DNA from: Chloroflexota bacterium
Lineage (GTDB): Bacteria > Chloroflexota > Anaerolineae > UBA4142 > SHND01
Assembly (NCBI GenBank): GCA_029778615.1
Contig: JAKOPZ010000134.1
Location: forward strand, 1-33,429
Length of the DNA stretch: 33,429 nucleotides
Reading direction: 5' to 3'
Below are positions 11,737 through 27,822 of this stretch, piece by piece. The notes beneath the pieces are model-generated. The model did no database searches, was not told the origin of the DNA, and saw only the letters and a program-made list of their open reading frames with translations. The first letter of the stretch is position 1, and each line of letters opens with the position of its first letter. The position numbers were made by a program, and so were the translations under genes.

Positions 11737-12048
11737 GGTTCACGCGCCGCGAACGCGTAACCGCTTGGGCGCCGATTCGCGCGCGAGACATCGCGGCGAG
11801 CACCGCCTGCAAAAAGACGCGGCGTTGAATCCGTAAACGCGTCCACAAGACAAAAAAAACCGCACGTGAATTGCCGCGTGCGGTTTTTTCTATTCTCCGC
11901 GTGTTCCACAAGCAATGTCCCCAACATGGTCGAGGCGAAATCGCGGCAGCCACAACGCAAGACCACCTTTGCAGACTGCGTAACGTCCGCAGGAACGTTT
12001 CGTGACTTGGTTGCCGCGAATTCCATTCGCCATCAAACAAAAAAGGGC
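11737..12048. other. Spacer between pckG and the GntR gene
   Basis: About 310 nt without a supported gene. It contains a bidirectional terminator near 11854-11889. Short antisense frames here only continue shadows of pckG. I see nothing else in it. Confidence 0.5.
11854..11889. terminator. Bidirectional intrinsic terminator after pckG
   Basis: 13-bp stem (11854-11866 with 11877-11889) that includes A6 on one side and T6 on the other, around a GC-rich centre CCGCACG, with a 10-nt loop. It can work on both strands. Confidence 0.85.
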
Positions 12049-12076
12049 TTGACTTGCGCAATAATTGTGCTATTAT
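12049..12076 (+). promoter_or_regulatory. Promoter of the GntR gene
   Basis: TTGACT (12049-12054), a 16-bp spacer and TATTAT (12071-12076). The spacer holds the imperfect palindrome GCGCAAT-A-ATTGTGC (12056-12070, one mismatch), a possible autoregulatory operator for the regulator encoded downstream. Confidence 0.65.
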
Positions 12077-12112
12077 TGTTGTAATGACATCTGACAACAT
12101 AATGAGACCCCA

Positions 12113-13748: not shown

Positions 13749-14735
13749 ATGAAATTTGGATTCATCCCCACCGAAGGCGGACAATTTTTTCAACAAGCAT
13801 TGACCGAAGCCATTCTCGGCGAAGAGCTCGGTTTCGATTCTGTGTGGCTCGAAGAACATCACAGCATCCGCAATCACTATTGGGCGTCGCCGTTGATGGC
13901 GCTCGCGGGCATTGCGGCGCGCACCTCGCGCATCGAGCTCGGCACCGATATTGTGGTGATGCCGTTTTATCATCCCGTGCGGCTCGCCGAAGATGTGACG
14001 ATGCTCGACGTCATGTCCAACGGACGCGTCATTTTTGGCGGCGCCATCGGTTATCGTCCGCCCGAATTTGATTTGTACGGCATTTCGATTGACGAACGCG
14101 GCGGACGCTATGTGGAAATGTTAAAAATCATGCGCGCGCTGTGGACGCAAGAACAAGTGGAATTTCACGGCAAATTTTTCAACGTCGTCGGCAGCATCGA
14201 ACCGAAACCGCTGCGCGTGCCGCCCATTTGGCTCGGCGGCTGGGGCGAACTCTCGTTGAAACGCGCGGCAGCGCTCGGCGACGCGTGGGTGCCGGGTCCG
14301 ACCGCGAATTTGGAAAAATTGCTGCACGCGCAAAAACAGTACCGCGAAAATTTGCGCGCGCTCGGAAAAAATCCGACAGAGTATCCGACGCCGCTCACGC
14401 GCGAAGTGGTCATTGCCGAAACCACCGAACGCGCGTGGGAACTCGCGGAAAAACATCTGCTCATCAATTATCGCGACGAGTACGGCGGCGGCGTGTGGAA
14501 ACATCCGCTCATCGGTTCCAGTGACGCGACGCCTGTGAATCAACTCGACGCGCTGGCGAATGACCGTTTCCTCGTCGGCAATCCCGACCAGGTGGTTATT
14601 CAACTCAAACGTTTTCAAGAAACATTCGGCGTGGACCATCTCATTTGTCGTTTGTATTTTCCCGGAATGCCGCACGACCACATCATGAACGAACTGCGCT
14701 TGATTGCAAAACAAGTGATGCCGGCGTTTCGGTGA
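13749..14735 (+). CDS. LLM-class flavin-dependent oxidoreductase (bacterial luciferase-like)
   Basis: 328 aa TIM barrel of the luciferase-like monooxygenase family: MKFGFIPTEGG, EELGFDSVWLEEHH, RIELGTDIVVMPFYHPVRLAEDV, GRVIFGGAIGYRPPEF, then PPIWLGGWGE and FLVGNPDQV. Members use reduced FMN or F420 to oxygenate or hydride-transfer to small organic molecules; the cofactor cannot be decided here. The gene is 6 nt after the TIM-barrel isomerase. Its stop codon TGA (14733-14735) lies in the first unit of the long heptad array. Confidence 0.9.
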   Translation: MKFGFIPTEGGQFFQQALTEAILGEELGFDSVWLEEHHSIRNHYWASPLMALAGIAARTSRIELGTDIVVMPFYHPVRLAEDVTMLDVMSNGRVIFGGAIGYRPPEFDLYGISIDERGGRYVEMLKIMRALWTQEQVEFHGKFFNVVGSIEPKPLRVPPIWLGGWGELSLKRAAALGDAWVPGPTANLEKLLHAQKQYRENLRALGKNPTEYPTPLTREVVIAETTERAWELAEKHLLINYRDEYGGGVWKHPLIGSSDATPVNQLDALANDRFLVGNPDQVVIQLKRFQETFGVDHLICRLYFPGMPHDHIMNELRLIAKQVMPAFR

Positions 14736-14835
14736 GCGGTGAGCAGAAAGCAGTAATCCGTAAGCGGTGAGCAAGTAATCGGTTTGTGCATTGTGCATTA
14801 GGCATTGAGCATTGTCCATTGTCCATTGTCCATTA
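14731..14835. repeat. Heptad array 3: 15 consecutive in-phase 7-nt units
   Basis: Exactly 105 bp, divisible into 15 heptads without an indel. The first part consists of GGTGAGC and variants (AGAAAGC, CGTAAGC); after two transition units, the second part consists of TGCATTG to TCCATTG variants. The upstream stop codon lies in the first unit, and the last base is the A of the DUF2264 start codon. Confidence 0.9.
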
Positions 14836-16856
14836 TGAACGTCTCTTTTGATTTTCAACTCTCGCCTTTCACCGGCTGGACACGCGCGCATTGGGAATAC
14901 ATGCTCGCGCGCGCGACGTACGGCTATGTGCGCGCGGCAGAGAAAAATGGTTCAATGGCGCGCGCATTGTATCCCAACGACCGCCGCGATTTGCCCGACG
15001 CGGTGGACGCGTTGGAATCGTTCGCGCGTATCGCGTCGGTGTGGGGCGCGTGGTTGAGCAATCCGAAAAATTCGGCGACGTTGACGTTTGAACATCGCGC
15101 GTTGAACCTCGAAGAAATTTTGTATCGCGCGCTGCTCGAAGGCACGGACGAAAAAAATCCGCGCACGTATTGGGGCAAAATGCGCGGCATGGACCAACGC
15201 ATCGTCGAAGCGGCGGACATGGCGCTCGCGGTGTGGTTCTCGCGCGAGCGCGTCTTCCAGCGCATGAACGAACGCGAACGCGCGCAAATCATCGCGTGGC
15301 TCGCGCAAGTGGACGGACAGGACACGTATTACGACAATTGGGTTTTGTTTCCCGCCGTCGCGCAAGCGGTGCGGTTACAGCTCGGCTATCCGGTGGACGA
15401 ACGCGAACTCGACGCGCGGCTCGAACAAACGGCAGCGTTTTATCGCGGCGATGGTTGGTACGTGGATGGAACGGGCGCGGAATACGAATTGTACAACGCG
15501 TGGATGTTCGGCTGGCATTATGTGTTGTGGGCGCACATTGACGGCGCGCGTCGTCCCGCCCATCGCGATGTGGTGCTCGAGCGCGCGCGTTTGTTTTTGA
15601 ACGGCTTGCAATATTTTTTTGGCGCGAACGGCGCGTATCCCGCGTGGGGTCGCAGCATCGTGTATCGCTTTGCGGCGATTGCGTGTTTCGCCACAGGGTA
15701 TCTGATGAACATTGCGCCCATGTCGCCCGGCGCGCTGCGGCGTCTTGCGAGCGGCAACTTGAAATATTTTTATGATAACGAATGTTTTGACCCGCACGAA
15801 CATTTTTTGCGGCAAGGCTTTCACGGCGATTTTCCGCCCGCCGCCGAAGCGTACATTTCGCCAGGCTCGCCGTCGTGGGCATGTCACGGATTGTTTGCGT
15901 TGGCATTCGATTCCGACGACGCGTTTTGGATCGAACGCGAAGAACCGCTGCCGGTCGAACGCGATGATTTTGAAATCGCTTTAGCGACGCCCGGATTTGT
16001 TTTAAGCGGACGCCGCGAAACGGGACAGGTGATTTTGCTCAACGCGGGCAGCGGGCATCAACCCGAAAATCCGCGTCACAATTACATTCCCAAATACGGC
16101 AAGCTCGCGTACTCGACGCATTTTCCATTCAACGTCTTGCCCGCAGGGCACACGTACGCGCCCGACGCGATGGTATCGCTTACGAATGACGACGTTGAAT
16201 TCGCGCATCGCTTCACCAATCGCGCGCACGGCGTGGGTCCGGGCGTAATGTGGAGTGAATTTTTTGAATATGTGGGCGGCGAACCGCAGTTGTTACGTAT
16301 TGCCATTGTGATGTGGCGCGACGTACAACTGCGGTTCACTTTTGTACAGCCGACGCGGCGCGTGCGCGTGGTCGAAGCGCCGGGCGCGTTGGGCTGCAAC
16401 GGCGCGGCGTGCGTGACGCGAAAATCGAATGCGCCAGAAGGTTGGGAATACGCGGAAGCGGAAGGACGCGCGCTCGCCATCCAACGTTTGTTTGGGTATG
16501 ACGCGCAGCGCGCGAGCGAACCGTTCCGCGATTATTCCAACATCAATCTCGCGTATCCGTACGCCGAACAACCGCTCATCATGGAACGCGAAATGAGTTT
16601 GCGCGCGCGGTGTTTGGCGTCTGCTGTGCTTTTGCGTCCGCGCGCATTCGACCCCGCGCAAGAATTTGCCGACATCCGTGTGAACGCGACCGAACGCGGC
16701 GACTTTGAAATCGCACTGCCGAACGACGAACGCGCGTTTGTGTCGCTCGCGAATCAATTACCCAAAACTATCCGCGTCGGCGCAACCGAAATCATCGGCA
16801 AAGCGATTCGCTATGCGCGCGTCCAGCGCGGCGTGGTTACAGGCATTGGAATTTAG
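14835..16856 (+). CDS. DUF2264 domain protein
   Basis: 673 aa from ATG 14835; the frame upstream is only repeat DNA. The N-terminal about 370 aa match DUF2264: FTGWTRAHWEYMLA, then YYDNWVLFPAVAQAVRLQLG (about 165-184) and FYRGDGWYVDGTGAEYELYNAW, then SPGSPSWACHGLFALAF. The pattern of repeated helices with conserved Trp, Tyr and Asp suggests an alpha/alpha-barrel like those of carbohydrate-active enzymes. The C-terminal about 290 aa are beta-rich, as in many such hydrolases and lyases. No signal peptide is visible, so it should act in the cytosol on an imported oligosaccharide. Its reaction is not established from sequence. The polysaccharide deacetylase gene follows after 4 nt. Confidence 0.85.
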   Translation: MNVSFDFQLSPFTGWTRAHWEYMLARATYGYVRAAEKNGSMARALYPNDRRDLPDAVDALESFARIASVWGAWLSNPKNSATLTFEHRALNLEEILYRALLEGTDEKNPRTYWGKMRGMDQRIVEAADMALAVWFSRERVFQRMNERERAQIIAWLAQVDGQDTYYDNWVLFPAVAQAVRLQLGYPVDERELDARLEQTAAFYRGDGWYVDGTGAEYELYNAWMFGWHYVLWAHIDGARRPAHRDVVLERARLFLNGLQYFFGANGAYPAWGRSIVYRFAAIACFATGYLMNIAPMSPGALRRLASGNLKYFYDNECFDPHEHFLRQGFHGDFPPAAEAYISPGSPSWACHGLFALAFDSDDAFWIEREEPLPVERDDFEIALATPGFVLSGRRETGQVILLNAGSGHQPENPRHNYIPKYGKLAYSTHFPFNVLPAGHTYAPDAMVSLTNDDVEFAHRFTNRAHGVGPGVMWSEFFEYVGGEPQLLRIAIVMWRDVQLRFTFVQPTRRVRVVEAPGALGCNGAACVTRKSNAPEGWEYAEAEGRALAIQRLFGYDAQRASEPFRDYSNINLAYPYAEQPLIMEREMSLRARCLASAVLLRPRAFDPAQEFADIRVNATERGDFEIALPNDERAFVSLANQLPKTIRVGATEIIGKAIRYARVQRGVVTGIGI

Positions 16857-16860: not shown

Positions 16861-17751
16861 ATGAATTTGAATTTGACCGTGCTCATGTATCACTATGTCC
16901 GCGATGCAGGCGACGCGGCGGAAGCGGGTTCAGGAATACGCGGCATGTCCAAACAGAAATTTTGTGCACAAGTGGACACAATCGCGCGAACGTACGAAAT
17001 GGTTTCGTGGAAGGATGTGCGCGAGGCGGTGCTGGAAAAAAAACCGCTGCCCGAACGCGCGTGTTTACTCACGTTTGACGACGGCGTGTGCGACCACTAT
17101 TGGAATGTGTTTCCCGAATTGGCGCGGCGCAAGCTTTCGGGACTCTTTTTTGCGCTCGCGCGCGCAGAGGACGCGAATTTGCCGCTGCCGTTCAAACTGC
17201 ATTTTTTGATTGCGCGGCTCGGTTTGGAAAATTTGCGCGCGGAAATTTGGAATCGCTTGAATGAAGCGCAGCGCGCAATCTATCGCGACGCGGAAGCGCG
17301 GTACCGCTTGCGCGGGAAAGCAGAAACGGACGTGGTCAAAGGAATTTTTCAACGCGACCTCGCCGACGCGGTGAATCCGCTCTTGAGCGAACTAATTGCG
17401 CAGCACATCGGCTCGGAACAAGAATTGGCGCGGCAGTTATTTTTGAACGACGCGCAGATAAAAGAAATGCGCGCGGGCGGAATGCATTTTGGCGGACACA
17501 GCGCGACGCATCCGTGGTTCGATTTTATTTCGCCCGCCCAGCGCGCCGACGAAATTCGCGCGTCGCGCGAGGGGTTGACGCGTGTGGAACAGCCGCCGTT
17601 CGCGTTCGCGTATCCGTACGGCGGACTCGCAGACGACGCGCCGCAACTTTTTCAACAAAATCATTTTTGCGCCGCGTTCACCACGCGCGCAAGCGTCACA
17701 CACGCCGACCCGTTTTACATCGGGCGATTCGACGGCGAAGAATGGCAATGA
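16861..17751 (+). CDS. Polysaccharide deacetylase family protein (NodB homology)
   Basis: 296 aa from ATG 16861; longer versions only add antisense-like sequence from the upstream gene. NodB motifs are present: TFDDG (71-75, catalytic base and metal Asp), HSATH (213-217, the two metal His) and FAYPYG later. Family enzymes remove N- or O-acetyl groups from sugars using a divalent metal. No signal peptide is seen, so a cytosolic acetyl-sugar or oligosaccharide is the likelier substrate. It lies 4 nt after DUF2264 and overlaps the Gfo/Idh gene by ATGA, so these form a coupled group. Confidence 0.88.
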   Translation: MNLNLTVLMYHYVRDAGDAAEAGSGIRGMSKQKFCAQVDTIARTYEMVSWKDVREAVLEKKPLPERACLLTFDDGVCDHYWNVFPELARRKLSGLFFALARAEDANLPLPFKLHFLIARLGLENLRAEIWNRLNEAQRAIYRDAEARYRLRGKAETDVVKGIFQRDLADAVNPLLSELIAQHIGSEQELARQLFLNDAQIKEMRAGGMHFGGHSATHPWFDFISPAQRADEIRASREGLTRVEQPPFAFAYPYGGLADDAPQLFQQNHFCAAFTTRASVTHADPFYIGRFDGEEWQ

Positions 17752-18791
17752 CGGTAACGCGTTTCGGCATCGTCGGCTGCGGCAGCGCGGCGGTGCCCGT
17801 TTGTCAAGCGATTGCAAATTTGCCCGACACGACGCTCGCGCGTGTGCATGATGTCAATGTCGAACTCGCGCGTGATTTGAGCGAACGCTGCAACGTTCCG
17901 TACACGACTGACGTGAACGAACTGTTGAACGATTCGGACATTGACGCAGTGTATCTCGCGGTGCCGCATGATTTGTTGGCGGGATTGGCGCGCCAAGTTT
18001 TGCAAGCCAACAAACATGCGCTGGTCGAAAAACCGTTGGCGTTGACGCTGGATGAGATTGACGAATTGATTGCGCTCGCGGAAGAAAAACAGCGCGCGCT
18101 CGGCGTCTTTTACGAAATGCGCTACGCCGATAGTTTTCGGCAGGCGCGCGAATTGGTGCAGGCGAAGAGGTTGGGTGAAATTTTTGGCGTGAAAATGCAA
18201 ACGCTGATTGATAAAAAATTGACGTATTGGAATGTCGGCTACAGCGGACGTTCGGCGAATCCGTGGCGCGGCGAAAAGAAACGCGCGGGCGGCGGGGTGA
18301 CGTTGATGAACACGAGTCATCTGCTCGACGCGCTGTGGTACGTGACGAATTTGCAAGTCACGCGCGTCGCCGCCGAAAGCGGAACGTTGGTGGCGCACGT
18401 TGAAGTCGAAGATACACTCGCGGCGACGCTGCGCTTTCACAACGGCGCGCTTGGCAGTCTGTTTGCGGGCGCGCACATCGTCGGCGCCCACGCGGGCGAG
18501 GCGTTTGAAATTTATGGGACACACGGCACCTTGCGCGTCCCCGACCCGTACAGTGACGAGCCGCTCGAAATTTTTTTACGCACGCGTTGGAACGACATTC
18601 CCGCCGCCACATGGCACATGCTCCCGCGCGCCAGCGTGAATGTGTTTGAACGCGCCGTACAAGATTTCGCACGCGCCGTACAAAACAACGCGCGTGCGCC
18701 CATCAACGGAAACGATGCGCGGCGCGTCCTGCAAATTATTTTGGCAATGTATCGCGCGGCGGAAGAAAAGCGCGCGGTGAATTTGCAATGA
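17748..18791 (+). CDS. Gfo/Idh/MocA-family oxidoreductase
   Basis: 347 aa. ATG 17748 overlaps the stop of the deacetylase as ATGA; ATG 17742 is also possible. N-terminal Rossmann motif GIVGCGSAAVPVC (7-19), the family EKPLALT signature with K95, and a C-terminal beta-sheet domain starting near GGGVTLMNTSHLLDAL. It should oxidise or reduce a sugar, sugar acid or inositol-like compound with NAD(P) in the cytosol. Its position between deacetylase and DapA-like lyase suggests it prepares a keto acid or keto sugar for cleavage; this is inferred. Confidence 0.9.
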   Translation: MTVTRFGIVGCGSAAVPVCQAIANLPDTTLARVHDVNVELARDLSERCNVPYTTDVNELLNDSDIDAVYLAVPHDLLAGLARQVLQANKHALVEKPLALTLDEIDELIALAEEKQRALGVFYEMRYADSFRQARELVQAKRLGEIFGVKMQTLIDKKLTYWNVGYSGRSANPWRGEKKRAGGGVTLMNTSHLLDALWYVTNLQVTRVAAESGTLVAHVEVEDTLAATLRFHNGALGSLFAGAHIVGAHAGEAFEIYGTHGTLRVPDPYSDEPLEIFLRTRWNDIPAATWHMLPRASVNVFERAVQDFARAVQNNARAPINGNDARRVLQIILAMYRAAEEKRAVNLQ

Positions 18792-18803: not shown

Positions 18804-19724
18804 ATGCGACAACTTGATTTGCGCGGCATTATCCCCGCGATTGTGACGCCGATGCTGCCCGATGGCACGTTCGACCGCGCGAGCATGAAGCGCTATATCG
18901 AATGGCTCGTCGCGCAAAAACCGATTGCGCTCGCGGTAAATGTGGACACGGGCGAAGGACCGCATTTGAGTTTCGACGAGCGCGGCGAAATTTTGAAAGC
19001 GGTCAAGGAATTTGTGAACGGACGCTGTTTGATGGTCGCGGGCATTGGCGGACCCGCAACGGCGATGGCGGTGGCGAATGCCAAACAAGCGCGCGACGCG
19101 GGCGCGGACGCGTTATTGATTTTTCCCATTCCCGCGTATCTCGGACAACCGTTGAACCCGGAAATCCCGTACCGTTATCACGCGGCGATTGCGGACGCGG
19201 CGGACTTGCCGTTGATTTTGTTTCAATTGCAGCCTGCGCTCGGCGGCTTGAATTACACCGCCGAAGTGATTCATCGCCTCATCGAAATTCCGCACGTCGT
19301 CGCCATCAAAGAAGCGAGTTTTGACGCGATGCGTCATGCGCAAATGCGCGTCATGCTCGACACGGCGAGTCGGCGCATCACGATGCTCACGGGGCAGGAC
19401 AATTTTATTTACGAAAGTTTTCTGTTGGGCGCGGAAGGCGCGCTGTTGGGCTTTGCCACACTCGGCACGCGCGAACATGTCGAGATGCTCGACGCGATTC
19501 GCCGCTGTGATTTCGCCGCCGCGCAAACGCTGGGCAAACGCTTGCAAGCTTTGGCAGATGTGATTTTCGCGCCGCCCGTGAGCGATTATCGCGCGCGCAC
19601 CAAAGAAGCGTTAAAGCTGATGGGCATTATCGAGCATACAGTGGTGCGTCCGCCGCTGTTGGATGTGGACGACGCCGAACGCGAGAACGTAAAACGCGCG
19701 CTCGAGCGCGCAGGCATGTTGTAG
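18804..19724 (+). CDS. DapA-family class I lyase with altered catalytic residues
   Basis: 306 aa, typical length for the dihydrodipicolinate synthase/N-acetylneuraminate lyase family. Strong AAGGAGAA upstream. The Schiff-base Lys is K169 in VVAIKEAS, and the pyruvate-carboxylate-binding region is VDTGEG (48-52 core). The Tyr that ends the LYNVP-type motif and shuttles protons in DapA is Phe here (F140 in LILFQLQP), and the YY pair of the VTPYY region is replaced by FPIPAY. So it is probably neither DapA nor a standard sialic acid lyase. A keto-acid aldolase or dehydratase of the sugar-acid type, or an altered mechanism, are the options. It follows the Gfo/Idh gene by 12 nt. Confidence 0.88.
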   Translation: MRQLDLRGIIPAIVTPMLPDGTFDRASMKRYIEWLVAQKPIALAVNVDTGEGPHLSFDERGEILKAVKEFVNGRCLMVAGIGGPATAMAVANAKQARDAGADALLIFPIPAYLGQPLNPEIPYRYHAAIADAADLPLILFQLQPALGGLNYTAEVIHRLIEIPHVVAIKEASFDAMRHAQMRVMLDTASRRITMLTGQDNFIYESFLLGAEGALLGFATLGTREHVEMLDAIRRCDFAAAQTLGKRLQALADVIFAPPVSDYRARTKEALKLMGIIEHTVVRPPLLDVDDAERENVKRALERAGML

Positions 19725-19764
19725 GCACACAATACACAAACGCGCAAGAAACGCGCGGGCGAAT

Positions 19765-19876: not shown

Positions 19877-20016
19877 TTGCGAATTATAACTCAACAAGTT
19901 GCGCGCGACCAGAGCTTGCAAATTATTCGTCCGCGCCCGAAAACGTCAAGGAGGCAATGCCGGAAGATTTGGCGTACCGTATTTCAACCATTCCAATTTG
20001 AACTCAAGGAGGAGAA

Positions 20017-21519
20017 ATGAAATCGCGCATTTGGCTCAGTTTCGCCGCGTTGCTCATCGCATCATTCGTGTTGATTCAATGCGGCACACCCGCCACGCCG
20101 CCGCCGCCAGCGCCGCCCGTAATACAAACGGTGGTCGTACAGCAAACGGTTGTGAACACGGTCAAAGAAACCGTCGCCGTCCCGCAAACCGTTGCTGTCC
20201 CGCAAACCGTTGTGGCAGAAAAAACGGTTGTAGTGGAACCGACGAAAGCGCCGCCCTCGGGCGTAGTCAAAGTCTTGCTCATCGGCAAACCCGACGAAGA
20301 CAGCATTGACCAAGTGACCGGCAAGCCGGTCCCGGGCGTCCAACAGCTCAAAAAGATGTTTGAAGAAAAATACCCCACGATTGACATGCAAATCATCAAC
20401 ATCCCGTGGGGCTCCGGCGCAACCGGCTATGGTCCCAAAACCGAAACGATGATTCAGGCGCAAGAGGCGTGCGTCTATCACATGCCCGGCGCGTTCGATT
20501 ATGGTCGGCGCGGGTACCTGCAAAACCTCGACGATTTCATCAAGAACGACCCGGACTTTAAGAATGTGTGGGGCGACAATCTCGCCCAATGGCGCGGTTG
20601 GGGTCCCGGCAATCCTGACAATCAGTGGGGCTTGCCGTACTCGGGCGGCAATCGCGTGATTCATTACGACGCGAAATTGTTCGAAGATTGGGGCGTCGAA
20701 CCGTTGAGTCTGCATCCGACGCTGCAAGAGATTGAAGAAAAAGCCGCCAAGATGACCGGCAAGAATCCCAAGACCGGCGAACAGAATTACGGATATTGGT
20801 ATCAGGGCAAATACATCAACTGGCAATTCCAGGTCATCGCCCACGCGTTCGGCGCAACGTGGGGCAAAGTGAATGACGACGGCACGTGGACTATCAATTG
20901 GAATACGCCGGAATACTTGAAAGCGCTCGAGTGGCTCGTCAAGATGAACAAGTATGCGCCGCCCGGCGCGCTCGCCGCCGATGCGATGCCCGATGGCTTT
21001 CTCACTGACCAAAACGTCGTCGCCATCATTCCCGAAGGCGAAACCGGTTACTATTTGCAGCCGTTCGTTTCCACGCCGGGACTCGATAAACGCTTCCGTA
21101 CCGTGTACAACATTCAAGGTCCGGATGGCAAAGGCGGTCTGTTCATCGCCGACCCCATTACAATGGCGGCGAGCTGCCCGAACAAAGATGCCGCGTGGGT
21201 CGTGATGAAATGGCTCGCGGGCAGTGTGGAATCGCAAAAATACAACTTTGATTCCGGCGGCAACTTGCCTGTGATTGACGCCAAGTTGACAATGGAGGCA
21301 ATTCCCGAACTCGGCAAACTGACTGACGCACAGGCGATTCTCGACCAGAACGCGCACGCGGAAAAACGTTATCCGTGGGCATCTTCGCAGCCGCGCTTTT
21401 CACTGCAAACGGCAATCGAAGCCGCGCTCGCGGGAACGCTGACACCGCAGCAAGCTTTGGAGCAAGCGCAAAAAGAAACCGATGACTGGTTGAAACAACA
21501 ACAGCAGGCGAGTCAATAA
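20017..21519 (+). CDS. ABC importer substrate-binding lipoprotein, family 1 (carbohydrate type)
   Basis: 500 aa, ATG preceded by AAGGAGGAGAA. Lipoprotein signal with lipobox LIQC22. A tether to about residue 85 is built from Val/Gln/Thr repeats such as VAVPQTV repeated twice. Then an SBP_bac_1-like domain follows: LKKMFEEKYPTIDMQIINIPWG, DFIKNDPDF, WGLPYSGGNRVIHYDAKLFEDWG, and PWASSQPRF near the end. Such receptors bind mono- or oligosaccharides or polyols outside the membrane. The permeases at 21708 and 22614 are its partners. The ATPase is missing and is probably a shared MsmX-like protein encoded elsewhere. Confidence 0.92.
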   Translation: MKSRIWLSFAALLIASFVLIQCGTPATPPPPAPPVIQTVVVQQTVVNTVKETVAVPQTVAVPQTVVAEKTVVVEPTKAPPSGVVKVLLIGKPDEDSIDQVTGKPVPGVQQLKKMFEEKYPTIDMQIINIPWGSGATGYGPKTETMIQAQEACVYHMPGAFDYGRRGYLQNLDDFIKNDPDFKNVWGDNLAQWRGWGPGNPDNQWGLPYSGGNRVIHYDAKLFEDWGVEPLSLHPTLQEIEEKAAKMTGKNPKTGEQNYGYWYQGKYINWQFQVIAHAFGATWGKVNDDGTWTINWNTPEYLKALEWLVKMNKYAPPGALAADAMPDGFLTDQNVVAIIPEGETGYYLQPFVSTPGLDKRFRTVYNIQGPDGKGGLFIADPITMAASCPNKDAAWVVMKWLAGSVESQKYNFDSGGNLPVIDAKLTMEAIPELGKLTDAQAILDQNAHAEKRYPWASSQPRFSLQTAIEAALAGTLTPQQALEQAQKETDDWLKQQQQASQ

Positions 21520-21537
21520 CTCACCTTACGCAGTAGC

Positions 21538-21630
21538 TGTCATTTCGAGCCGTTCTTGCGAGAAATCTCAGTGGAAAACCGAGATTTCTCACAGAGTTTA
21601 CCCCGAAGGATTGAGGGGTTCGAAATGACA
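21538..21630. repeat. REP-like hairpin copy 3
   Basis: 93 bp with the standard ends TGTCATTTCGAG and CGAAATGACA. Its right half shares the segment around 21590-21630 with copy 4. It is flanked by TTACGCA (21526-21532) and its complement TGCGTAA (21631-21637), and further out by the direct repeat AGTCAATAA (21511-21519 and 21642-21650). Confidence 0.85.
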
Positions 21631-21662
21631 TGCGTAACATCAGTCAATAAGTTAGAGGCACA

Positions 21663-21697
21663 AGACCTGACAGGTTCTTGATGAACCTGTCAGGTCT
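21663..21697. repeat. Perfect 15-bp palindrome before the sugar permease
   Basis: AGACCTGACAGGTTC (21663-21677) and its exact complement (21683-21697) with loop TTGAT. An ATG at 21681 falls at the loop. As RNA it forms a strong hairpin 10 nt upstream of the more likely start at 21708. Confidence 0.85.
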
Positions 21698-21707
21698 CCC
21701 TAACGAA

Positions 21708-22607
21708 ATGCGAAAACAACTCCGCGACAGTTTGATTTGGTACGCGCTCATTGCGCCGACCTTCATTCTCTTTGCGATTTTCGTCGCCTATCCGACCATC
21801 GAAACCTTTCGCCTGAGTTTGTACCGCGAAGTGGCGACGAAACAAGAATTCGTCGGACTCGCGCATTATGCGCGCTTGCTCGGCGACCAAATTTTTCGCA
21901 GCGCGCTCTTGAATACCGCGCTGCTCGGCGCCGCGTTCTTGCTGATTGTGATTCCATTGGGTTTGGTGCTCGCGTCGCTCTTGAACAATTTGAAATACGC
22001 GCCCAATTTTTTCAAAGTCGTCTATTTCTTGCCGCAGATTACTTCGTCCGTCGCGATTGCGCTCATCTTTGGCTATGTCTTTCAACCGAATTGGGGTTTG
22101 TTGAACAACGGACTGCGCGCGTTGGGTGTGGACCCGCTGCCGCTGTGGCTCGCCGACCCGAATTACAATCTCACCGGGTCGCGCGCGGCGGCGACAATTC
22201 TCGCGGTGTATGTGGCGCTCGGCTATTACATGCTCGTCACGCTCGCGGGGCTGCAAGCCATTCCGCAGGAACTGTACGATGCGGCGGTGGTGGACGGCGC
22301 GAATTTTTGGCAAGCGTGGTGGTACATTACCATTCCCAATTTGCGTCCCACCTTTGTTTTCTTGATTATCACGGGCTCGATTGAAGCGCTCTCGCGTTTT
22401 GGCGATTTGTACACGCTCGGCGGACCCGGCGGCTCGCCCGCGCGTTCTCTGCAAACGATTGTGATGTATTTGTACCAGACCGCCTTCGAGTCGAATGATT
22501 TCAATCTCGCTTCCGCGACGGCGGTACTTTTATTTCTCATCATGTTAGCTGTGACGATTTTCAATTTCCGCGCGCTGTTACAGCGCGAGTTCAGCCGCCG
22601 CGATTAA
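21708..22607 (+). CDS. Carbohydrate ABC importer permease, UgpA/MalF-like
   Basis: 299 aa from ATG 21708; starts at 21678 or 21681 would translate the palindrome. It has six predicted helices beginning SLIWYALIAPTFILFAIFVAYP, a region typical of UgpA/LacF permeases, and the EAA loop PQELYDAAVVDGANFWQAWW (about residues 190-210) for contact with the ATPase. It should pair with the next permease, 6 nt downstream. No Shine-Dalgarno is visible ahead of 21708, but a hairpin lies there, so translation may depend on RNA folding. Confidence 0.9.
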   Translation: MRKQLRDSLIWYALIAPTFILFAIFVAYPTIETFRLSLYREVATKQEFVGLAHYARLLGDQIFRSALLNTALLGAAFLLIVIPLGLVLASLLNNLKYAPNFFKVVYFLPQITSSVAIALIFGYVFQPNWGLLNNGLRALGVDPLPLWLADPNYNLTGSRAAATILAVYVALGYYMLVTLAGLQAIPQELYDAAVVDGANFWQAWWYITIPNLRPTFVFLIITGSIEALSRFGDLYTLGGPGGSPARSLQTIVMYLYQTAFESNDFNLASATAVLLFLIMLAVTIFNFRALLQREFSRRD

Positions 22608-22613
22608 AACCTT

Positions 22614-23510
22614 ATGAGCGACCTCACCCTTTCCAAAACCACCGCCGAACGCGCGACGCTTGCGAATTTTTTTCGCTCGCATCGTCGCAGCACGCAGTTC
22701 AAACAAATTGTGATTTTGTTGATTCTCGGCATCGGCGCGTTCTTGATGATTATGCCGTTCGAGTGGATGCTGGCAACGTCGTTTTCGCGTTCCGCCAATA
22801 TCGCCATGCCGCGCGTCGTACGTTTTTTTCCCGCCGACCCGTCGCTGTTCAATTACCAAGTCGCTATCACCAATCTGCCGCTGCCGCGTTTGTATCTCAA
22901 TTCGTTCATCGTCACTGCCGTCGCCACCGTCGGCTATTTATTTTTCAGCGCGCTGACGGGTTATGCGTTCGCCAAAGGACGCTTTGTCGGCAAAAGCATT
23001 TTGTTTCTCATTATTCTCATGACGTTGATGATTCCGTTCGAAGTGCGGATGATTCCGCTGTACTTTTTAATCAAAGAGATGGGCTTGCGAAACAATTTGC
23101 TCGCGCTGATTCTGCCGTTTCTCGCGGGTGGCTTTGGCGTGTTTCTCATGCGCCAATACATCAGCACCATTCCCGACGATTTGGTGGACGCGGCGCGCGT
23201 GGACGGCGCAAGTGAGTTTACGATTTTTTGGCGCGTTATCTTGCCATTGTGCGGTCCGCCGCTCGCCGCGCTGGCAGTGCTTTCCGCGTTGTGGCGCTGG
23301 AACGATTTGATTTGGCCCCTGCTCGCGATTTCTGACCGCAACATGTACACGGTAACGCTCGGACTCGCGGTGGCGGGACGCTCGCAAGGCACGTACACGG
23401 GTTCCGCGTTGGCGAACGCCGCGCTCGCCATCATTCCCATCACCATCGTTTATCTCTTGCTCCAACGCTACATCATCAGAGGCATCGCGATGACGGGGTT
23501 AAAAGGTTAA
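22614..23510 (+). CDS. Carbohydrate ABC importer permease, UgpE/MalG-like
   Basis: 298 aa. Six helices; the features are MIMPFEWMLATSFS after the first helix, LTGYAFAKGRFVGKSILF, and the EAA loop IPDDLVDAARVDGASEFTIFWR, followed by WRWNDLIWPLLAI, typical of the UgpE/AraQ group. It is co-transcribed with the UgpA-like gene and completes the channel for the 20017 receptor. Confidence 0.92.
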   Translation: MSDLTLSKTTAERATLANFFRSHRRSTQFKQIVILLILGIGAFLMIMPFEWMLATSFSRSANIAMPRVVRFFPADPSLFNYQVAITNLPLPRLYLNSFIVTAVATVGYLFFSALTGYAFAKGRFVGKSILFLIILMTLMIPFEVRMIPLYFLIKEMGLRNNLLALILPFLAGGFGVFLMRQYISTIPDDLVDAARVDGASEFTIFWRVILPLCGPPLAALAVLSALWRWNDLIWPLLAISDRNMYTVTLGLAVAGRSQGTYTGSALANAALAIIPITIVYLLLQRYIIRGIAMTGLKG

Positions 23511-23520
23511 CCACAAACCA

Positions 23521-24969
23521 ATGAATCTTCCTTTCGATCCTTCTGCTCCCAATTTCAAAAACGCGATTCGCGCGATTCCCGGTTATCCGCCAAACGACGA
23601 CGTGCCGATTCAAGCGATGGTGTTTGAATCCGACGCGTACGCGCATCTGCCCGCGCTGCTCACTCAAATCGGCGCGGCGCGCGAACATCCGCTCATCGTC
23701 GTCGCGGACGAATTGCCCATTCGCCGCGCGGGCGTCGAACTCAAACCCTTGCTCATTCATTTTCTTCAAGCTAACGGTTGGAATCCCGAACTCGTGGTGC
23801 TCACCCCGCAGCACGGCGAACCCCTGCACACCGATTGGTTTCAGGTACAGCGCGTGCAGCAACAACTCACGCGCGGGGCGGCGGTTGTCGCGGTGGGTTC
23901 AGGCACCGTCACGGATGTTTCCAAACACGCGTGCTTTTTGTACGAACTCGAATACGGCGCGCACATTCCATTCGTCGTCATGCCCACAGCCAACAGCGTG
24001 AGCGCGTATACGTCCAACACCGCGTCGGTTGAAGTGGGCGGCGTGAAAAAAACTCTGCCTTCGCGTTATCTCGACGTATTGGTGTGCGATGTGGAAACGC
24101 TCGCGAGCGCGCCGCGCACTGCCAGCGTGGCGGGCATCGGCGACATTCTCGTCGCGTTTGGCAGTTTCGCAGATTGGTTTCTCGCCGCGCGCGTGGGACA
24201 CGATAAAAATTACAGTGACCTGCCGCGCACGCTCATCGGTCCGCTCGACGAAATTTTTCTCCACGAAGCGGTGGAACTGCGCGACGGAACGCCGCACGGC
24301 ACCGCGCTCTTGGCAAAACTGCTCGCCCTCGAAGGACTGGCACAATCGCTCGCGCACACCAGCGCGCCGTTTTCGGGCTTTGAGCACACCATTTCGCATT
24401 TGCTCGATTTGCTTATCAAGCAAAACAAACAACCGCCGATTCTGCATGGGACGCAAGTGGTGCTGCTCACCATTTTGACCACGCTCGCGTACCAAGAGTT
24501 CATGGACGCATTCGTTCCCGCGCGCGTAAACCTCGACGCGTGTTTTCCCTCGCGCGCAGAGATGCAAGCGCGTATCGAAAAAACATTTTCCGCGCTCGAC
24601 CCGTCGGGCGCGCTGGCGAACGAATTTTGGAACGAATATCAAAAGAAACTCGACACGTGGCACGCGCAGCGCGCAACGTTTGAAACCTTTTTGCGCGAGT
24701 GGGATTCGATTCGCGCGGAATTGCAAAGCATTGTGCGCCCGCCGCAAGAACTCGTCGCAATCTTGCAGCGCATGGGTTCGCCCACGCATTTCGAACAATT
24801 GCAACCGCCGCTGCCGGAAGACGAAATTCGTTTTGCGTTCGAGAACGCGTCGTTCTTTCGCAGTCGCTTTACGCTCGGCGACCTCTTTATTTTTTTGAAT
24901 TGGGATATGGACCGCTTGTGGGCGCGCATTTGGGAAGCGAGCCGCGCCTTGGCGCATCTCCCCGCTTGA
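23521..24969 (+). CDS. Glycerol-1-phosphate dehydrogenase-like protein (AraM/EgsA family, iron-containing ADH superfamily)
   Basis: 482 aa. Nucleotide-binding motif VAVGSGTVTDVSK (123-135), MPTANSVSAYTS (154-165), and the three metal ligands D208 in AGIGDIL, H289 in SGFEHTISH and H309 in ILHGTQV. This is the sn-glycerol-1-phosphate dehydrogenase/AraM pattern, reducing DHAP to G1P or acting on a related polyol phosphate with NAD(P). It is about 80 aa longer than the archaeal enzymes, by a C-terminal helical part. It follows the sugar permeases by 10 nt. In Bacillus, araM likewise sits with the araNPQ importer genes, which also lack an ATPase; the parallel suggests a role in sugar use rather than lipids, but lipid synthesis is not excluded. 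Confidence 0.85.
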   Translation: MNLPFDPSAPNFKNAIRAIPGYPPNDDVPIQAMVFESDAYAHLPALLTQIGAAREHPLIVVADELPIRRAGVELKPLLIHFLQANGWNPELVVLTPQHGEPLHTDWFQVQRVQQQLTRGAAVVAVGSGTVTDVSKHACFLYELEYGAHIPFVVMPTANSVSAYTSNTASVEVGGVKKTLPSRYLDVLVCDVETLASAPRTASVAGIGDILVAFGSFADWFLAARVGHDKNYSDLPRTLIGPLDEIFLHEAVELRDGTPHGTALLAKLLALEGLAQSLAHTSAPFSGFEHTISHLLDLLIKQNKQPPILHGTQVVLLTILTTLAYQEFMDAFVPARVNLDACFPSRAEMQARIEKTFSALDPSGALANEFWNEYQKKLDTWHAQRATFETFLREWDSIRAELQSIVRPPQELVAILQRMGSPTHFEQLQPPLPEDEIRFAFENASFFRSRFTLGDLFIFLNWDMDRLWARIWEASRALAHLPA

Positions 24970-25006
24970 TGGTTGTACAAATTTCACTTTTCAGGAGGCA
25001 TCCTCA

Positions 25007-25861
25007 ATGTCCAATTCGACGGGCAAACAGATTCGCTTGAATCGCTTGATTCAAACCGAAACAAACACGTGCATCATTTGCGCGATTGACCACGGCATGA
25101 CCTCGCCGATTTTTCTGGATGGTTTGTACGACACGAAAACGCGCGTGCGCCAAGCGATTCAAGGCGGCGCGAATGTTTTGATGCTCGGACGCGGCGTGGT
25201 CAGAGATACGTGCGGCGCGTTTCAGCGCGACACCTCGCTCGCGTTGATGCTCACCGCGTCGGCGGCGGGCAAACCGTCGGGCGCGGTCGTCACGCCCATC
25301 GGTTCGGTGCAAGAAGCGTTGCAGCTCGCGGCGGACGCGGTGGTAGTGTACGTCGCGCTCGCGGGCGAGAACGAACCCGAAATGATTCAATATCTTTCCG
25401 CCATCGGCGCGGCGTGTGAAGCGAACGGGATGCCCTTTATCGCGGAAGCGGAATATCCCAACGCGTATCAAAGTTTGAATGCGATGGGCGAAACGTACGG
25501 TGCGGAATATCTCAAGCGCAATGCGCGCTTGTGCGCGGAGATGGGCGCGGACATTGTCAAAGTGAATTGGTCGGGCGACCAAAAATCGTTTGGCGAAATC
25601 GTGCGCGCGTGCGCGCGTCCCGTCGTCCTCGCGGGCGGTTCGCTCATCAGCGACCAAGAATTGTTGACGCGTATGCAAATGGCGCGCGATGTCGGCGCGG
25701 TCGGCTGCTCCGTCGGACGCAACATTTTTCAGCACACGCATCCCGAAGCGATTACGCGCGCGATTTGTCGCGTGTTCCGCGACCGCTGGTCGGCGCGCGA
25801 CGCGGAACAAGAATTGATGGACGCGGTGAATGGAAACGCCAAGACGTTCGCGGCGGCGTAG
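25007..25861 (+). CDS. Class I aldolase, DhnA/FbaB/LsrF type
   Basis: 284 aa, with AGGAGG 10 nt upstream of ATG. TIM-barrel class I aldolase: AIDHGM (26-31), the Schiff-base Lys K185 in ADIVKVNWSGD, VVLAGG (phosphate site) and VGRNIFQHTHPEA near the C-terminus. The family includes fructose-bisphosphate aldolase class I, LsrF and the ADH synthase of archaeal aromatic synthesis. In a catabolic locus, cleavage of a phosphorylated ketose to DHAP or another C3 unit is expected. It lies between the G1P-dehydrogenase-like gene and the FGGY kinase, which supports a kinase-aldolase pathway. Confidence 0.85.
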   Translation: MSNSTGKQIRLNRLIQTETNTCIICAIDHGMTSPIFLDGLYDTKTRVRQAIQGGANVLMLGRGVVRDTCGAFQRDTSLALMLTASAAGKPSGAVVTPIGSVQEALQLAADAVVVYVALAGENEPEMIQYLSAIGAACEANGMPFIAEAEYPNAYQSLNAMGETYGAEYLKRNARLCAEMGADIVKVNWSGDQKSFGEIVRACARPVVLAGGSLISDQELLTRMQMARDVGAVGCSVGRNIFQHTHPEAITRAICRVFRDRWSARDAEQELMDAVNGNAKTFAAA

Positions 25862-25910
25862 GGAATCGGTTGTTCCCGCGTTGCTTTTTTGACTTGAGAG
25901 GGAGCCGAAA

Positions 25911-25958
25911 ATGTTTAGCGCCGCGGCATCATGCATCCGGCAGTGTCAAGTGATGTGA
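25911..25958 (+). other. Possible 15-aa leader ORF or remnant after the aldolase gene
   Basis: ATG 25911 follows GAGAGGGAG at 10 to 18 nt upstream, a fair ribosome binding site. The frame encodes 15 residues (MFSAAASCIRQCQVM) and stops at TGA 25956-25958, just before the 10-bp direct repeat of the inserted element. It may be a peptide, a remnant of a longer RNA or chance. Confidence 0.2.
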
Positions 25959-25968
25959 CCCATCGCAC

Positions 25969-26120
25969 AAGGCAACTGCAAAGTCGCGCCAATTGTCATT
26001 TCGAGCGGATGCGAGAAATCTCAACCTTTCGTGACAAACGAGATTTCTCACAGAGTTTACCCCGAAGGATTGAGGGGTTCGAAATGACATATCCTTGTCA
26101 AGGGACTTTGCAGTCGCCTT
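25969..26120. mobile_element. MITE-like element carrying REP copy 4, with flanking 10-bp direct repeats
   Basis: The 19-bp terminal inverted repeats (25969-25987 and 26102-26120) differ at 2 positions. The direct repeat ACCCATCGCA flanks it at 25958-25967 and 26122-26131, one base away from each end, as expected for a target duplication. The centre (25994-26089) is a REP-like hairpin with the usual TGTCATTTCGAG end. It encodes no transposase. Confidence 0.7.
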
Positions 26121-26151
26121 AACCCATCGCAAGACAAAGCCGCCGGGGGAC

Positions 26152-26186
26152 ACGCGCAGGACAATCTGCCCTGCGCGTTTTTTTTT
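26152..26186 (+). terminator. Intrinsic terminator before the FGGY kinase
   Basis: 9-bp stem (26152-26160 with 26170-26178), a 9-nt loop and a run of nine T (26178-26186). It closes the transcript of the aldolase region and isolates the kinase promoter. Confidence 0.88.
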
Positions 26187-26211
26187 GAATCGAAACCCTT
26201 TGGCTGTTTTC

Positions 26212-26220
26212 TGCTACAAT
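26212..26220 (+). promoter_or_regulatory. Extended -10 promoter of the FGGY kinase gene
   Basis: TGCTACAAT: a TG extension and the -10 TACAAT (26215-26220). The ATG at 26229 lies 9 nt downstream of the hexamer, where transcription should start, so a leaderless mRNA is likely. No -35 at proper spacing. Confidence 0.5.
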
Positions 26221-26228
26221 TGGTTCGT

Positions 26229-27821
26229 ATGAACCCTCCACAAGGTTCACCGAAATTCATTCTCGCGATTGACCTTGGCACGTCCGCGCTCAAGGTCGCG
26301 CTCGTGACCACTGACGGCGAAATTCGCGCGTGCGAGCAAGCCGCGCAAAGTGTGACGCTCTTGCCCAACGGCGGCGCGGAACAAAAACCCGACGATTGGT
26401 GGCAAGCAATTGTGCAGACCGCGCAGCGCGTGTTGTCGCAACAGGTCGCGCCGGTGGATGACATTATCGCCATCGCTTGCACGACGCAGTGGTCAGGCAC
26501 CGTTGCGGTGGACCGCGCGGGCAATCCGTTACACAACGCGATTATTTGGATGGACGCGCGCGGCGCGCCGTACATCCAACGCGTAACAGGCGGCGGCATC
26601 GCAATCGAAGGATACGGCATCACGAAATTGGTGCCGTGGCTTCGCAAGACGGGCGGCATTCCGGGACACGCGGGTAAAGATTCCATCGCGCACATTCTTT
26701 GGCTCAAACACGAACGCCCGGACATTTACCGCGCGACGCACAAATTTCTCGAACCGAAAGATTATTTGAACTTGCGCTTGACGGGCAAGTTTGCCGCCGG
26801 GTACGATTCGATTATTTTGCATTGGGTGACCGACAATCGCCGCATCGCACACGTCGAGTATGACGCGCAGTTATTGAAACTTGTCGGCGTGCCGCGCGAC
26901 AAACTCCCCGACTTGAAACCTGCCGCGTCCGTGTTGGGAACGCTTGCGCCCGAAATGGCGCGCGAGTTCGGTTTGCGCGAGGATGTGCGCGTGGTGATGG
27001 GCACGCCCGATGTCCAATCGGCGGCGCTGGGTTCGGGCGCGGTGCGCGATTTTGACGCGCATTTGTACGTCGGCACGTCGGCATGGCTTTGCTGTCATGT
27101 CCCGTTCAAAAAAACAGATTTGACGCACAACATGGCGTCGCTGCCCTCCGCGCTGCCAAATCGTTACTTGCTCACGAACGAACAAGAAAGCGCGGGCGCG
27201 TGTCTCACCTATTTACGCGACAATTTATTTTTTCCCGACGACGCGCTCGCGACACCACAACCCGCACACGCATATCGCGCGTTCGATGCGTTGGCGGCGA
27301 ACGTTCCAGCAGGTAGTGACAAATTGATTTTTACACCGTGGCTGTACGGCGAACGCACGCCGGTTGAAGACCATCGCGTGCGCGGCGGTTTTTTCAATCA
27401 ATCTCTGCAAACGACGCGCGCGCATTTGGTGCGCGCGGTGATGGAAGGGGTCGCCTATAACGCGCGTTGGCTGTGCGACGCGGTAGAACAATTTTGCGGA
27501 CGCCCGCCGGACGCGTTAAATTTTATCGGCGGCGGCGCGAACTCGGATGTATGGAGTCAGATTTTCGCCGATGTGTTGAATCGTCCCATTCATCAAGTGC
27601 GCGACCCCGTGCAGGCGAATGTGCGCGGTGTGGCGCTGCTCGCGTCGGTCGCGCTCGGCGTGATGCCTGCCGCCGAAATTCCCGCGCACGTCGCGATTGC
27701 CAAGCGCTTTGCGCCCAATCCGGAAACGCGCCGCGTGTACGATGAACTCTTTGCGGAATTTAAAAACTTGTACCGGGCGAACAAAAAAATTTATGCGCGT
27801 CTGAATCGCGGAATGCAATGA
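26229..27821 (+). CDS. FGGY-family carbohydrate kinase (xylulokinase-like)
   Basis: 530 aa. N-terminal ASKHA fold: ILAIDLGTSALKVALV (phosphate-1 loop), CTTQWSGTVAVDRAGNPLHNAIIWMDARG, and KFLEPKDYLNLRLTG; C-terminal half with LYVGTSAWL, LIFTPWLYGERTPVED and NFIGGGANSDVWSQIFADV, the adenosine-site motif. ATP-dependent phosphorylation of a ketose or polyol is expected; xylulose is only the nearest family label. ATG 26229 is chosen because a TACAAT sits 9 nt upstream; TTG 26220 is in frame. It has its own promoter after a terminator and is followed with 1 nt spacing by the methyltransferase gene. Confidence 0.9.
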   Translation: MNPPQGSPKFILAIDLGTSALKVALVTTDGEIRACEQAAQSVTLLPNGGAEQKPDDWWQAIVQTAQRVLSQQVAPVDDIIAIACTTQWSGTVAVDRAGNPLHNAIIWMDARGAPYIQRVTGGGIAIEGYGITKLVPWLRKTGGIPGHAGKDSIAHILWLKHERPDIYRATHKFLEPKDYLNLRLTGKFAAGYDSIILHWVTDNRRIAHVEYDAQLLKLVGVPRDKLPDLKPAASVLGTLAPEMAREFGLREDVRVVMGTPDVQSAALGSGAVRDFDAHLYVGTSAWLCCHVPFKKTDLTHNMASLPSALPNRYLLTNEQESAGACLTYLRDNLFFPDDALATPQPAHAYRAFDALAANVPAGSDKLIFTPWLYGERTPVEDHRVRGGFFNQSLQTTRAHLVRAVMEGVAYNARWLCDAVEQFCGRPPDALNFIGGGANSDVWSQIFADVLNRPIHQVRDPVQANVRGVALLASVALGVMPAAEIPAHVAIAKRFAPNPETRRVYDELFAEFKNLYRANKKIYARLNRGMQ

Positions 27822-27822
27822 G

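Follow-up and report, generated by a model that had tools for sequence, protein, structure and literature searches.

In Bacillus subtilis, the araABDLMNPQ-abfA operon pairs AraM with an ATPase-less importer. Uronate dehydratases formerly assigned to GH154 are frequently, but not obligatorily, encoded near a GH88 or GH105 partner. Both the B. caccae enzyme BcGDH and the GH154 family are identified as uronate dehydratases (PMC12269599). The locus considered here has features in common with each. In the window (the whole stretch of DNA that was analyzed, 33,429 nucleotides), profile matches and ORF positions define one co-directional run of twelve genes on the forward strand, 12113–25861. Genes encoding a GntR regulator, a TIM-barrel protein, an LLM oxidoreductase, a DUF2264 protein, a deacetylase, a Gfo/Idh protein and a DapA-like protein are followed by three importer genes, a dehydrogenase and an aldolase, and then by an intrinsic terminator (Table 1). 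On balance, this run appears to be a GntR-controlled catabolic operon for a uronic-acid-containing carbohydrate (uronide).

Table 1. Features of the operon, its boundaries and the adjacent kinase gene.
Feature	Position	Strand	Remarks
Promoter/operator region	12041..12112	+	TTGACT, 16-18 nt, TATTAT; conserved element TTGTAATGACATCTGACAA immediately 5' of the GntR gene
GntR/UTRA regulator	12113..12886	+	PF07702, PF00392; 75% identity to G171
Xylose-isomerase-like TIM barrel (AP_endonuc_2)	12921..13742	+	PF01261; 62% G171, 44% G565
LLM-class oxidoreductase	13749..14735	+	PF00296; 86% G171, 58% G565
DUF2264 ("GH154") protein	14835..16856	+	PF10022, 269 bits
Polysaccharide deacetylase-like (NodB) protein	16861..17751	+	PF01522; TFDDG and HSATH motifs
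Gfo/Idh/MocA oxidoreductase	17742..18791	+	PF01408, PF22725
DapA-superfamily lyase/dehydratase	18804..19724	+	PF00701; 64% G565; missing from G171 cluster
Solute-binding lipoprotein	20017..21519	+	PF01547 (SBP_bac_1)
CUT1 permease	21678..22607	+	PF00528
CUT1 permease, second	22614..23510	+	PF00528
Long-form AraM/G1PDH-like Fe-ADH	23521..24969	+	Fe-ADH_2, PF13685, 50.2 bits (cut-off 28)
DhnA-type (DeoC/LacD-type) class I aldolase	25007..25861	+	Lys185 at Schiff-base position; 89% to G171
Intrinsic terminator	26152..26187 (about)	+	GCGCAGG...CCTGCGC and nine T; closes operon
FGGY kinase	26229 (first ATG)..27821	+	Not an operon member

An earlier note had grouped the importer, the dehydrogenase, the aldolase and the neighboring FGGY kinase (20017–27821) into a single pathway. 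All six genes are intact forward-strand ORFs at those positions, with profile matches to the families assigned to them, and the first five do lie in one operon; the dehydrogenase–aldolase pair is also found in a second genome of the genus (G171). The kinase, on the other hand, is excluded, and the operon begins at 12113, about 8 kb upstream of the start given in that note. As the note observed, none of the six genes encodes an ATPase; Pfam profile matches reveal none in the rest of the operon, and neither the ORF list nor the profile matches include a kinase gene within it.

The boundaries of the run are marked on both sides. The GntR gene of G171 is preceded by a promoter region of equal layout and by TTGT(A/T)ATGACATCTGACAA, and the GntR genes of the two genomes thus share what is, from its sequence, an operator-like element; related TTGTCTGACAA boxes occur upstream of GntR genes in loci L103–L107. 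The terminator is supported by its sequence and by RNA folding (z −1.9) and is absent from the terminator scan output. It is contained in the 367-bp gap that separates the end of the aldolase gene from the FGGY kinase.

Conservation of the upstream genes extends beyond the window. In G171, GntR, TIM-barrel, LLM, DUF2264, deacetylase, Gfo/Idh, dehydrogenase and aldolase genes occur in identical order, with different flanks on both sides and without the DapA-like and importer genes. In G565, which belongs to another family, the order from the TIM-barrel gene through LLM, DUF2264, deacetylase and Gfo/Idh to DapA is likewise identical, and the module is convergent with a second set encoding GntR, FGGY kinase, long dehydrogenase, HAD and TIM-barrel proteins. 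A search of the phylum detected the LLM gene in 6 of 400 genomes; beyond the window and G565, only G392 has another module gene (DapA, 43%), and LLM relatives at 61–62% in G295 and G267 stand without the remaining module enzymes. Three plasmid loci with DUF2264 relatives lack the module, and two of them have a CUT1 importer and hydroxyacid dehydrogenases as neighbors. Six haloarchaeal regions were opened around LLM or DapA homologues. Five contain pectinase, pectate/oligogalacturonate lyase, pectinesterase or galactonate-dehydratase/mandelate-racemase genes, and the sixth has only DHDPS and an importer.

The DUF2264 protein is a distant relative of BcGDH, a glucuronate dehydratase (122.6 bits), and retains nine of its ten active-site residues. 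These residues (E59, R63, N166, W167, F170, Y218, R271, Y275 and Y338, numbered from 14841) are invariant across all three rows of alignment A4, and the protein is likely a uronate dehydratase. Together with the pectin and sugar-acid genes in five of the six haloarchaeal regions, they make uronide catabolism the most likely role of the operon. The partner that would be expected alongside a GH154 dehydratase is lacking, as no GH88/GH105 uronyl hydrolase is seen in the operon. GH88 matches are absent from the clusters of the window, G171 and G565, and the window's genome as a whole yields only weak partial ones, the best being a 28-bit fragment on contig C220.

The best NCBIfam match of the LLM protein is to the F420 family model TIGR03619 (162.5 of 166.9 bits), and the enzyme is possibly F420-dependent; cofD is present in the window's genome, and a search of G565 for cofD gave no match. 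The DapA-like protein retains the Lys in VAIKEASFD, and an ILFQLQP stretch presumably stands in place of the superfamily's usual Tyr motif, that Tyr being absent. For the solute-binding lipoprotein, the closest solved chain is the trehalose/maltose-binding protein 1eu8 (44.8 bits).

We infer the following substrate and order of reactions. The binding protein and permease pair would bring in a uronide, energized by an ATPase encoded elsewhere. In the cytoplasm, the DUF2264 protein quite probably dehydrates the uronate residue, and the NodB-like protein would take off an acyl group. As a group, the LLM, Gfo/Idh, TIM-barrel and DapA-like proteins would then probably carry the uronate part onward via oxidation, isomerization and either dehydration or cleavage. 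What is left, a polyol or ketose chain, would probably be phosphorylated by the CK-type FGGY kinase whose gene lies on another contig, and one of the chain's secondary alcohols may be the target of the long AraM-like dehydrogenase; this step is the more tentative one. The class I aldolase would, somewhat more probably, split the resulting ketose phosphate into a C3 phosphate such as dihydroxyacetone phosphate (DHAP) and an aldehyde. What ties the dehydrogenase and aldolase to the molecule handled by DUF2264 is their co-location in two genomes of one genus (and, for the dehydrogenase by itself, in G565). A broader proposal appears doubtful as a whole: that this is a new Chloroflexota uronide route, in which DUF2264, an F420-type LLM and the DapA-like protein strip the uronate, and the polyol or ketose phosphate left over is oxidized by a new subfamily of long AraM-like dehydrogenases (SVS/SVT/SVN in place of SVD) and cleaved by a new DhnA aldolase subfamily, with the kinase supplied in trans and a Zn-type enzyme able to take the dehydrogenase's place.

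The aldolase adjoins the dehydrogenase in both the window and G171. It retains the Schiff-base K185, the general-base D28 and the phosphate site (G210, G211, G237 and R238), residues as named in PMC2728841, and by these residues it is a predicted phosphate-binding class I enzyme. Tyr150 is Phe in relatives at 66% and 53%. The "DhnA/LsrF-type" label of the earlier note stands in its first half, whereas LsrF itself does not fit (NF006081, 118.7 of 297 bits; LsrF Asp251 corresponds to Ser235), and by its score it is not an ordinary or archaeal-type class I fructose-bisphosphate aldolase either (NF040816, 123.2 of 430 bits). Around the gene for a rhizobial relative (locus L065, which has no annotation), BLAST shows two adjacent CUT1 permease genes and one resembling Gfo/Idh.

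The main alternative dispenses with both kinase and polyol aglycone. Intermediates derived from the uronate could themselves be the substrates of the dehydrogenase and aldolase: the former might, for instance, reduce a 4-deoxy-5-keto-uronate, and the latter would then split a keto-deoxy acid by aldol cleavage. The kinase-free operon and the uronates indicated by the upstream module are compatible with this, but the complete phosphate site of the aldolase and the FGGY kinases alongside its close relatives in L103–L105, L107 and G171 argue the other way, and we consider such a route rather unlikely. A biosynthetic cluster for a rare sugar or cyclitol, with the aldolase acting like ADTH synthase and the operon's DHQ-synthase-superfamily enzyme as its partner, is very unlikely. 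The highest scores of the aldolase are indeed to ADTH synthase models and MJ0400, its closest solved structure (163.3 bits); however, the model scores fall below their cut-offs (NF005556, 213.2 of 241; TIGR01949, 195.5 of 299.45), the run includes an importer and a GntR/UTRA regulator, and the scanned operon genes include no AroB'-type gene or glycosyltransferase.

In the pathway of the earlier note, the window FGGY kinase would phosphorylate an imported sugar or polyol, the aldolase would cleave it and the AraM-like enzyme would act on the triose phosphate. The genes are indeed ordered on one strand, and the family-level association is real: 29 of 35 aldolase loci in the phylum have an FGGY kinase, Zn-dehydrogenase or Fe-ADH within about 1.5 kb, and an FGGY kinase adjoins the DhnA aldolase at 15 of them. 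The window's own kinase is nevertheless unlinked. It scores 281.5 bits against the xylulokinase model TIGR01312, below the 380.25-bit cut-off, and has orthologues (50–83% identity) in nine other genomes of the order. At eight of these loci a sphingosine-phosphate-lyase-like gene lies alongside, the ninth (L128) being cut at the contig end. Three of the genomes (G184, G071 and G199) have no dehydrogenase orthologue, and G184 and G071 have no aldolase match at all; in G171 the orthologue, located on contig C115, is not near the cluster. The tree places the window kinase in a separate clade (support 100) from the cluster-linked kinases, whose own clade (G171, C97, L098, L099, L103, L107) links long dehydrogenases with this aldolase type, and an orthologue of the true cluster kinase, a CK-type FGGY, is found on contig C97 of the window's genome. 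From its orthologues' neighbors, its separate clade, the terminator and the intergenic gap, the window kinase is part of another gene group and is an unrelated gene of the lineage, which is the outcome that the earlier note itself had named as counting against it. Its pathway is already contradicted and highly improbable, and an attractive but wrong gene grouping is corrected.

The dehydrogenase falls, by alignment, in a distinct long AraM-like clade. It retains the metal ligands D208, H289 and H309, and S161 replaces the Asp of the SVD (SVDG/SVDA) motif, a residue that in glycerol dehydrogenase (GldA)/AraM has a substrate-site role. All eight Chloroflexota long forms have Ser, Thr or Asn at this position; the two long forms from plasmids retain the Asp, as do 36 of the 37 short-form rows kept in the alignment. 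The earlier note's alternative, supply of sn-glycerol-1-phosphate (G1P) for archaeal-type lipids, is least credible of all: the solved structures that match best are those of G1P dehydrogenases (9h4x, 98.9 bits), and the metal ligands are retained, but the enzyme scores 103.5 bits against a cut-off of 413 for the curated G1PDH model NF002022, the SVD Asp is lost, PcrB has no match in G171 and only fragments of 45–62 positions (23–27 bits) in G000, G184 and G071, and the operon context is carbohydrate. A GTDB contig scan with just two peptide patterns from the N-terminus found one locus, apparently in the same genome as G171, and so gives little information on the distribution of the dehydrogenase. 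A search of the open-access literature found no description of the long form or of this operon. The long form would represent an unrecognized AraM-like subfamily that pipelines would label G1P dehydrogenase or iron-containing alcohol dehydrogenase despite the lost Asp. For the co-conserved protein set, which includes the reclassified DUF2264/GH154 family, uronides offer a testable substrate class.

Like the B. subtilis ara operon, the window has an AraM-type dehydrogenase beside a binding protein and two CUT1 permeases with no ATPase gene; the dehydrogenase is however long-form, with Ser for the SVD Asp, and a DhnA aldolase and uronate-type module replace araA/B/D. The lsr AI-2 operon (Escherichia coli lsrACDBFG and lsrK; loci L155 and L160) likewise combines uptake genes with one for a protein of the class I aldolase fold, but the window operon has a different importer type, no LsrG, Ser235 for LsrF Asp251 and no kinase. 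Methanocaldococcus jannaschii MJ0400, an ADTH synthase, is structurally closest to the aldolase, which differs in its sub-threshold scores and catabolic context. Compared with BcGDH (PMC12269599), the window DUF2264 protein is identical at nine of ten probed active-site residues and differs in having an extra C-terminal region, no GH88 partner, and a co-operonic importer, LLM and aldolase. The haloarchaeal pectin/galacturonate clusters have importers and Gfo/Idh genes together with homologues of the LLM and DapA-family proteins, although the annotations of the opened regions show neither DUF2264 nor an AraM-like dehydrogenase nor a DhnA aldolase. Finally, the Chloroflexota GntR–aldolase–Zn-dehydrogenase–FGGY cassettes (L103–L107) replace the Fe-ADH with a Zn-dehydrogenase and continue with class III aminotransferase-like and glutamine-synthetase-like genes, but share the aldolase type (53%), a related GntR, the operator-like box and the CK-type kinase.

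A run of twelve genes, from a GntR regulator to a DhnA-type class I aldolase (see table), is best read as an operon that imports and breaks down a uronide. This reading is the best supported because it combines two independent uronate pointers, one importer, a GntR/UTRA regulator and a terminal aldolase with a phosphate site. Intergenic gaps in the run are -10 to 37 bp, except for ~100 bp upstream of DUF2264, and 292 bp upstream and 158 bp downstream of the solute-binding protein (SBP) gene. The 367 bp 3' of the aldolase contain GCGCAGG...CCTGCGC followed by nine T (hairpin fold z -1.9), a hairpin not among the sites listed by a generic terminator scan. One of two similar copies of a dispersed repeat (TCATTTCGAGCGGA...GAGAAATCTC), spotted by eye, sits between the aldolase and this terminator. 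The window (G000:C240:1-33429) belongs to a 6.0 Mb genome in 372 contigs, whose closest named relative found is Anaerolineae MAG SJ719.

Coordinates of the operon, its surroundings and related loci
Location	Coordinates	Strand	Feature
Window	2467-2560		dispersed repeat
Window	12113-25861	+	operon: GntR, AP_endonuc_2 TIM barrel, LLM oxidoreductase, DUF2264, NodB-like deacetylase, Gfo/Idh, DapA-like, SBP, two permeases, dehydrogenase, aldolase
Window	23521-24969	+	AraM-like dehydrogenase
Window	25007-25861	+	aldolase
Window	25990-26100		dispersed repeat
Window	26229-27821	+	FGGY kinase
Window	26229-29850		FGGY kinase and sphingosine-1-phosphate-lyase-like PLP protein, conserved pair in order; PEMT/ICMT-like methyltransferase gene between
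Window	28339-29850		PLP decarboxylase, read as sphingosine-phosphate-lyase-like
Window	29939-32859		VOC protein, intradiol-dioxygenase-like protein, amidase, downstream of kinase group
L151 (G000:C97)	127-10559		CK-type kinase, peptide-type ABC importer, RpiB-like protein (last two read by eye); faces GntR
L063 (Rubrobacter indicoceani plasmid)	6953-17074		long-form dehydrogenase, two FGGY kinases, GlpD-like oxidase, sugar-binding regulator, aquaporin
L064 (Shinella plasmid)	2257-18453		long-form dehydrogenase, two FGGY kinases, sugar ABC importer, GlpD, class II aldolase, TPP-dependent E1/E2, lipoyl synthase, HAD hydrolase
L096	7130-7861		small TIM-barrel-like protein
L098	~7466-8175		small TIM-barrel-like protein
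L099	7487-8155		small TIM-barrel-like protein
L153 (G171)	6636-8956		DhnA aldolase-FGGY pair with importer
L154 (G171)	1756-5190		DhnA aldolase-FGGY pair with importer

The uronate pointers lie in the upstream module. DUF2264 is the former GH154; according to PMC12269599, its member BcGDH is a beta-D-glucuronate dehydratase, and reclassification of the family is proposed there. Nine of the ten BcGDH residues mutated in that study are identical in the window protein (E59, R63, N166, W167, F170, Y218, R271, Y275 and Y338, numbered from a start at 14841), and the tenth, N176, is D165; the mapping goes through the printed alignment and applies a five-residue offset. All ten active-site columns are invariant in an alignment of the window protein with those of a same-genus genome (G171) and a genome from another family of the phylum (G565). 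The latter keeps the TIM-LLM-DUF2264-deacetylase-Gfo/Idh-DapA order (44, 58, 35, 38, 42 and 64% identity, respectively), convergent with a GntR-FGGY-long dehydrogenase-HAD-TIM run. The top plasmid matches of LLM are haloarchaeal (36-41%), and five of six haloarchaeal regions examined contain pectin or sugar-acid genes (pectinesterase, GH28, pectate/oligogalacturonate lyase, rhamnogalacturonan acetylesterase, or galactonate-dehydratase with mandelate-racemase); the sixth has only DHDPS and an importer. An F420 reductase gene occurs in two of the six, and cofD (F420 synthesis) in five of six genomes searched, including G000 and G171, with no match in G565.

Against the uronide reading, a uronyl hydrolase is missing, the G171 cluster lacks DapA and the importer, LLM relatives also occur outside the module, and just two genomes, both from a single genus, showed the dehydrogenase-aldolase pair. 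The reactions of these two enzymes, their order and any kinase acting in trans are what we infer.

At the G171 locus (L032), eight operon genes are kept in order at 62-89% identity, and neither side carries any gene that flanks the operon in the window; the cluster is thus conserved as a unit, rather than through general synteny. A profile search of all 20 order genomes, the window's own included, found a close dehydrogenase only in G000 and G171, and aldolases above 41% identity were likewise confined to these two in the search table for a class sample of 199 genomes. The element TTGT(A/T)ATGACATCTGACAA is common to both, just 3' of a -10-like TATTAT upstream of GntR, and TTGTCTGACAA-like boxes precede the GntR genes of five aldolase loci (L103-L107).

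An earlier note had joined importer, dehydrogenase, aldolase and the downstream FGGY kinase in one possible sugar/polyol pathway. The genes are all intact forward-strand ORFs with the expected family matches, and none encodes an importer ATPase. The kinase, on the other hand, is not a member of the operon: its orthologues (50-83%, in nine others of the 20 order genomes) adjoin a homologue of the PLP decarboxylase gene at eight of nine loci, the ninth ending at a contig end; G184, G071 and G199 have the kinase orthologue and no dehydrogenase orthologue; and in G171 it is located on another contig, C115. Window kinase and orthologues form one clade in a tree of 28 kinases (support 100). A different FGGY kinase starts 24 bp after the G171 aldolase. 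Its closest homologue in the window genome (57%) is on contig C97, in a run whose GntR is 54% identical to that of the window, and both kinases group with those of L098, L099, L103 and L107 (support 93, short-search tree). The C97 GntR/RpiB gap holds only half-sites related to the operator-like element, a weak link.

The dehydrogenase, an AraM-like protein, matches 9h4x best among solved chains (98.9 bits); its metal ligands are D208, H289 and H309. It falls in a long-form clade of 10 rows (support 94, quick tree) comprising the window, G171, Rubrobacter and Shinella plasmid proteins and six other Chloroflexota proteins. The Asp of SVD is replaced in all eight Chloroflexota long forms (S in three, T in two, N in three) and kept in both plasmid forms; among short forms, one of 37 rows (L086) has N there. 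Five of the ten long forms adjoin an FGGY kinase (G171, L063, L064, L098 and L099; the window's own is not counted), and five a HAD-IIA-type hydrolase (L064, annotated 'HAD hydrolase-like'; L096 and L101, by HMM; L098 and L099, read by eye). The stretches covered around L097 and L100 show no such kinase or hydrolase. The L063 region looks like a polyol cluster. At L096, L098 and L099 a small TIM-barrel-like protein adjoins the HAD and dehydrogenase genes; those of L096 and L099 have no Pfam match at 1e-3.

Aldolase neighbourhoods were compared at 35 loci (29 of the 30 best class-sample matches, the window's own being dropped, and six from another search). Within ~1.5 kb, an FGGY kinase occurs at 15, a Zn-dehydrogenase at 18 and an Fe-ADH at one, with at least one of the three at 29. 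The order GntR, aldolase, Zn-dehydrogenase, FGGY is found in L103-L105 and L107; L106 ends before the kinase position. At L103-L107 this cassette adjoins class III aminotransferase-like, GATase-like and glutamine-synthetase-like genes, a setting reminiscent of gamma-glutamyl amine catabolism. One of the two further G171 pairs (L153, L154) also has a Zn-dehydrogenase.

The window aldolase retains K185, D28, H29, G210, G211, G237 and R238, residues whose roles are described in PMC2728841. Tyr150 is Phe in relatives at L102 (66%) and at L103 and L107 (53%), and the proton donor is therefore uncertain. The earlier note had called the enzyme DhnA/LsrF-type. An identity as LsrF is not borne out: the protein scores under every curated cut-off among the NCBIfam models matched, Asp251 of LsrF is replaced by Ser235, and its closest solved chain is MJ0400, at 163.3 bits against 78.7 for LsrF.
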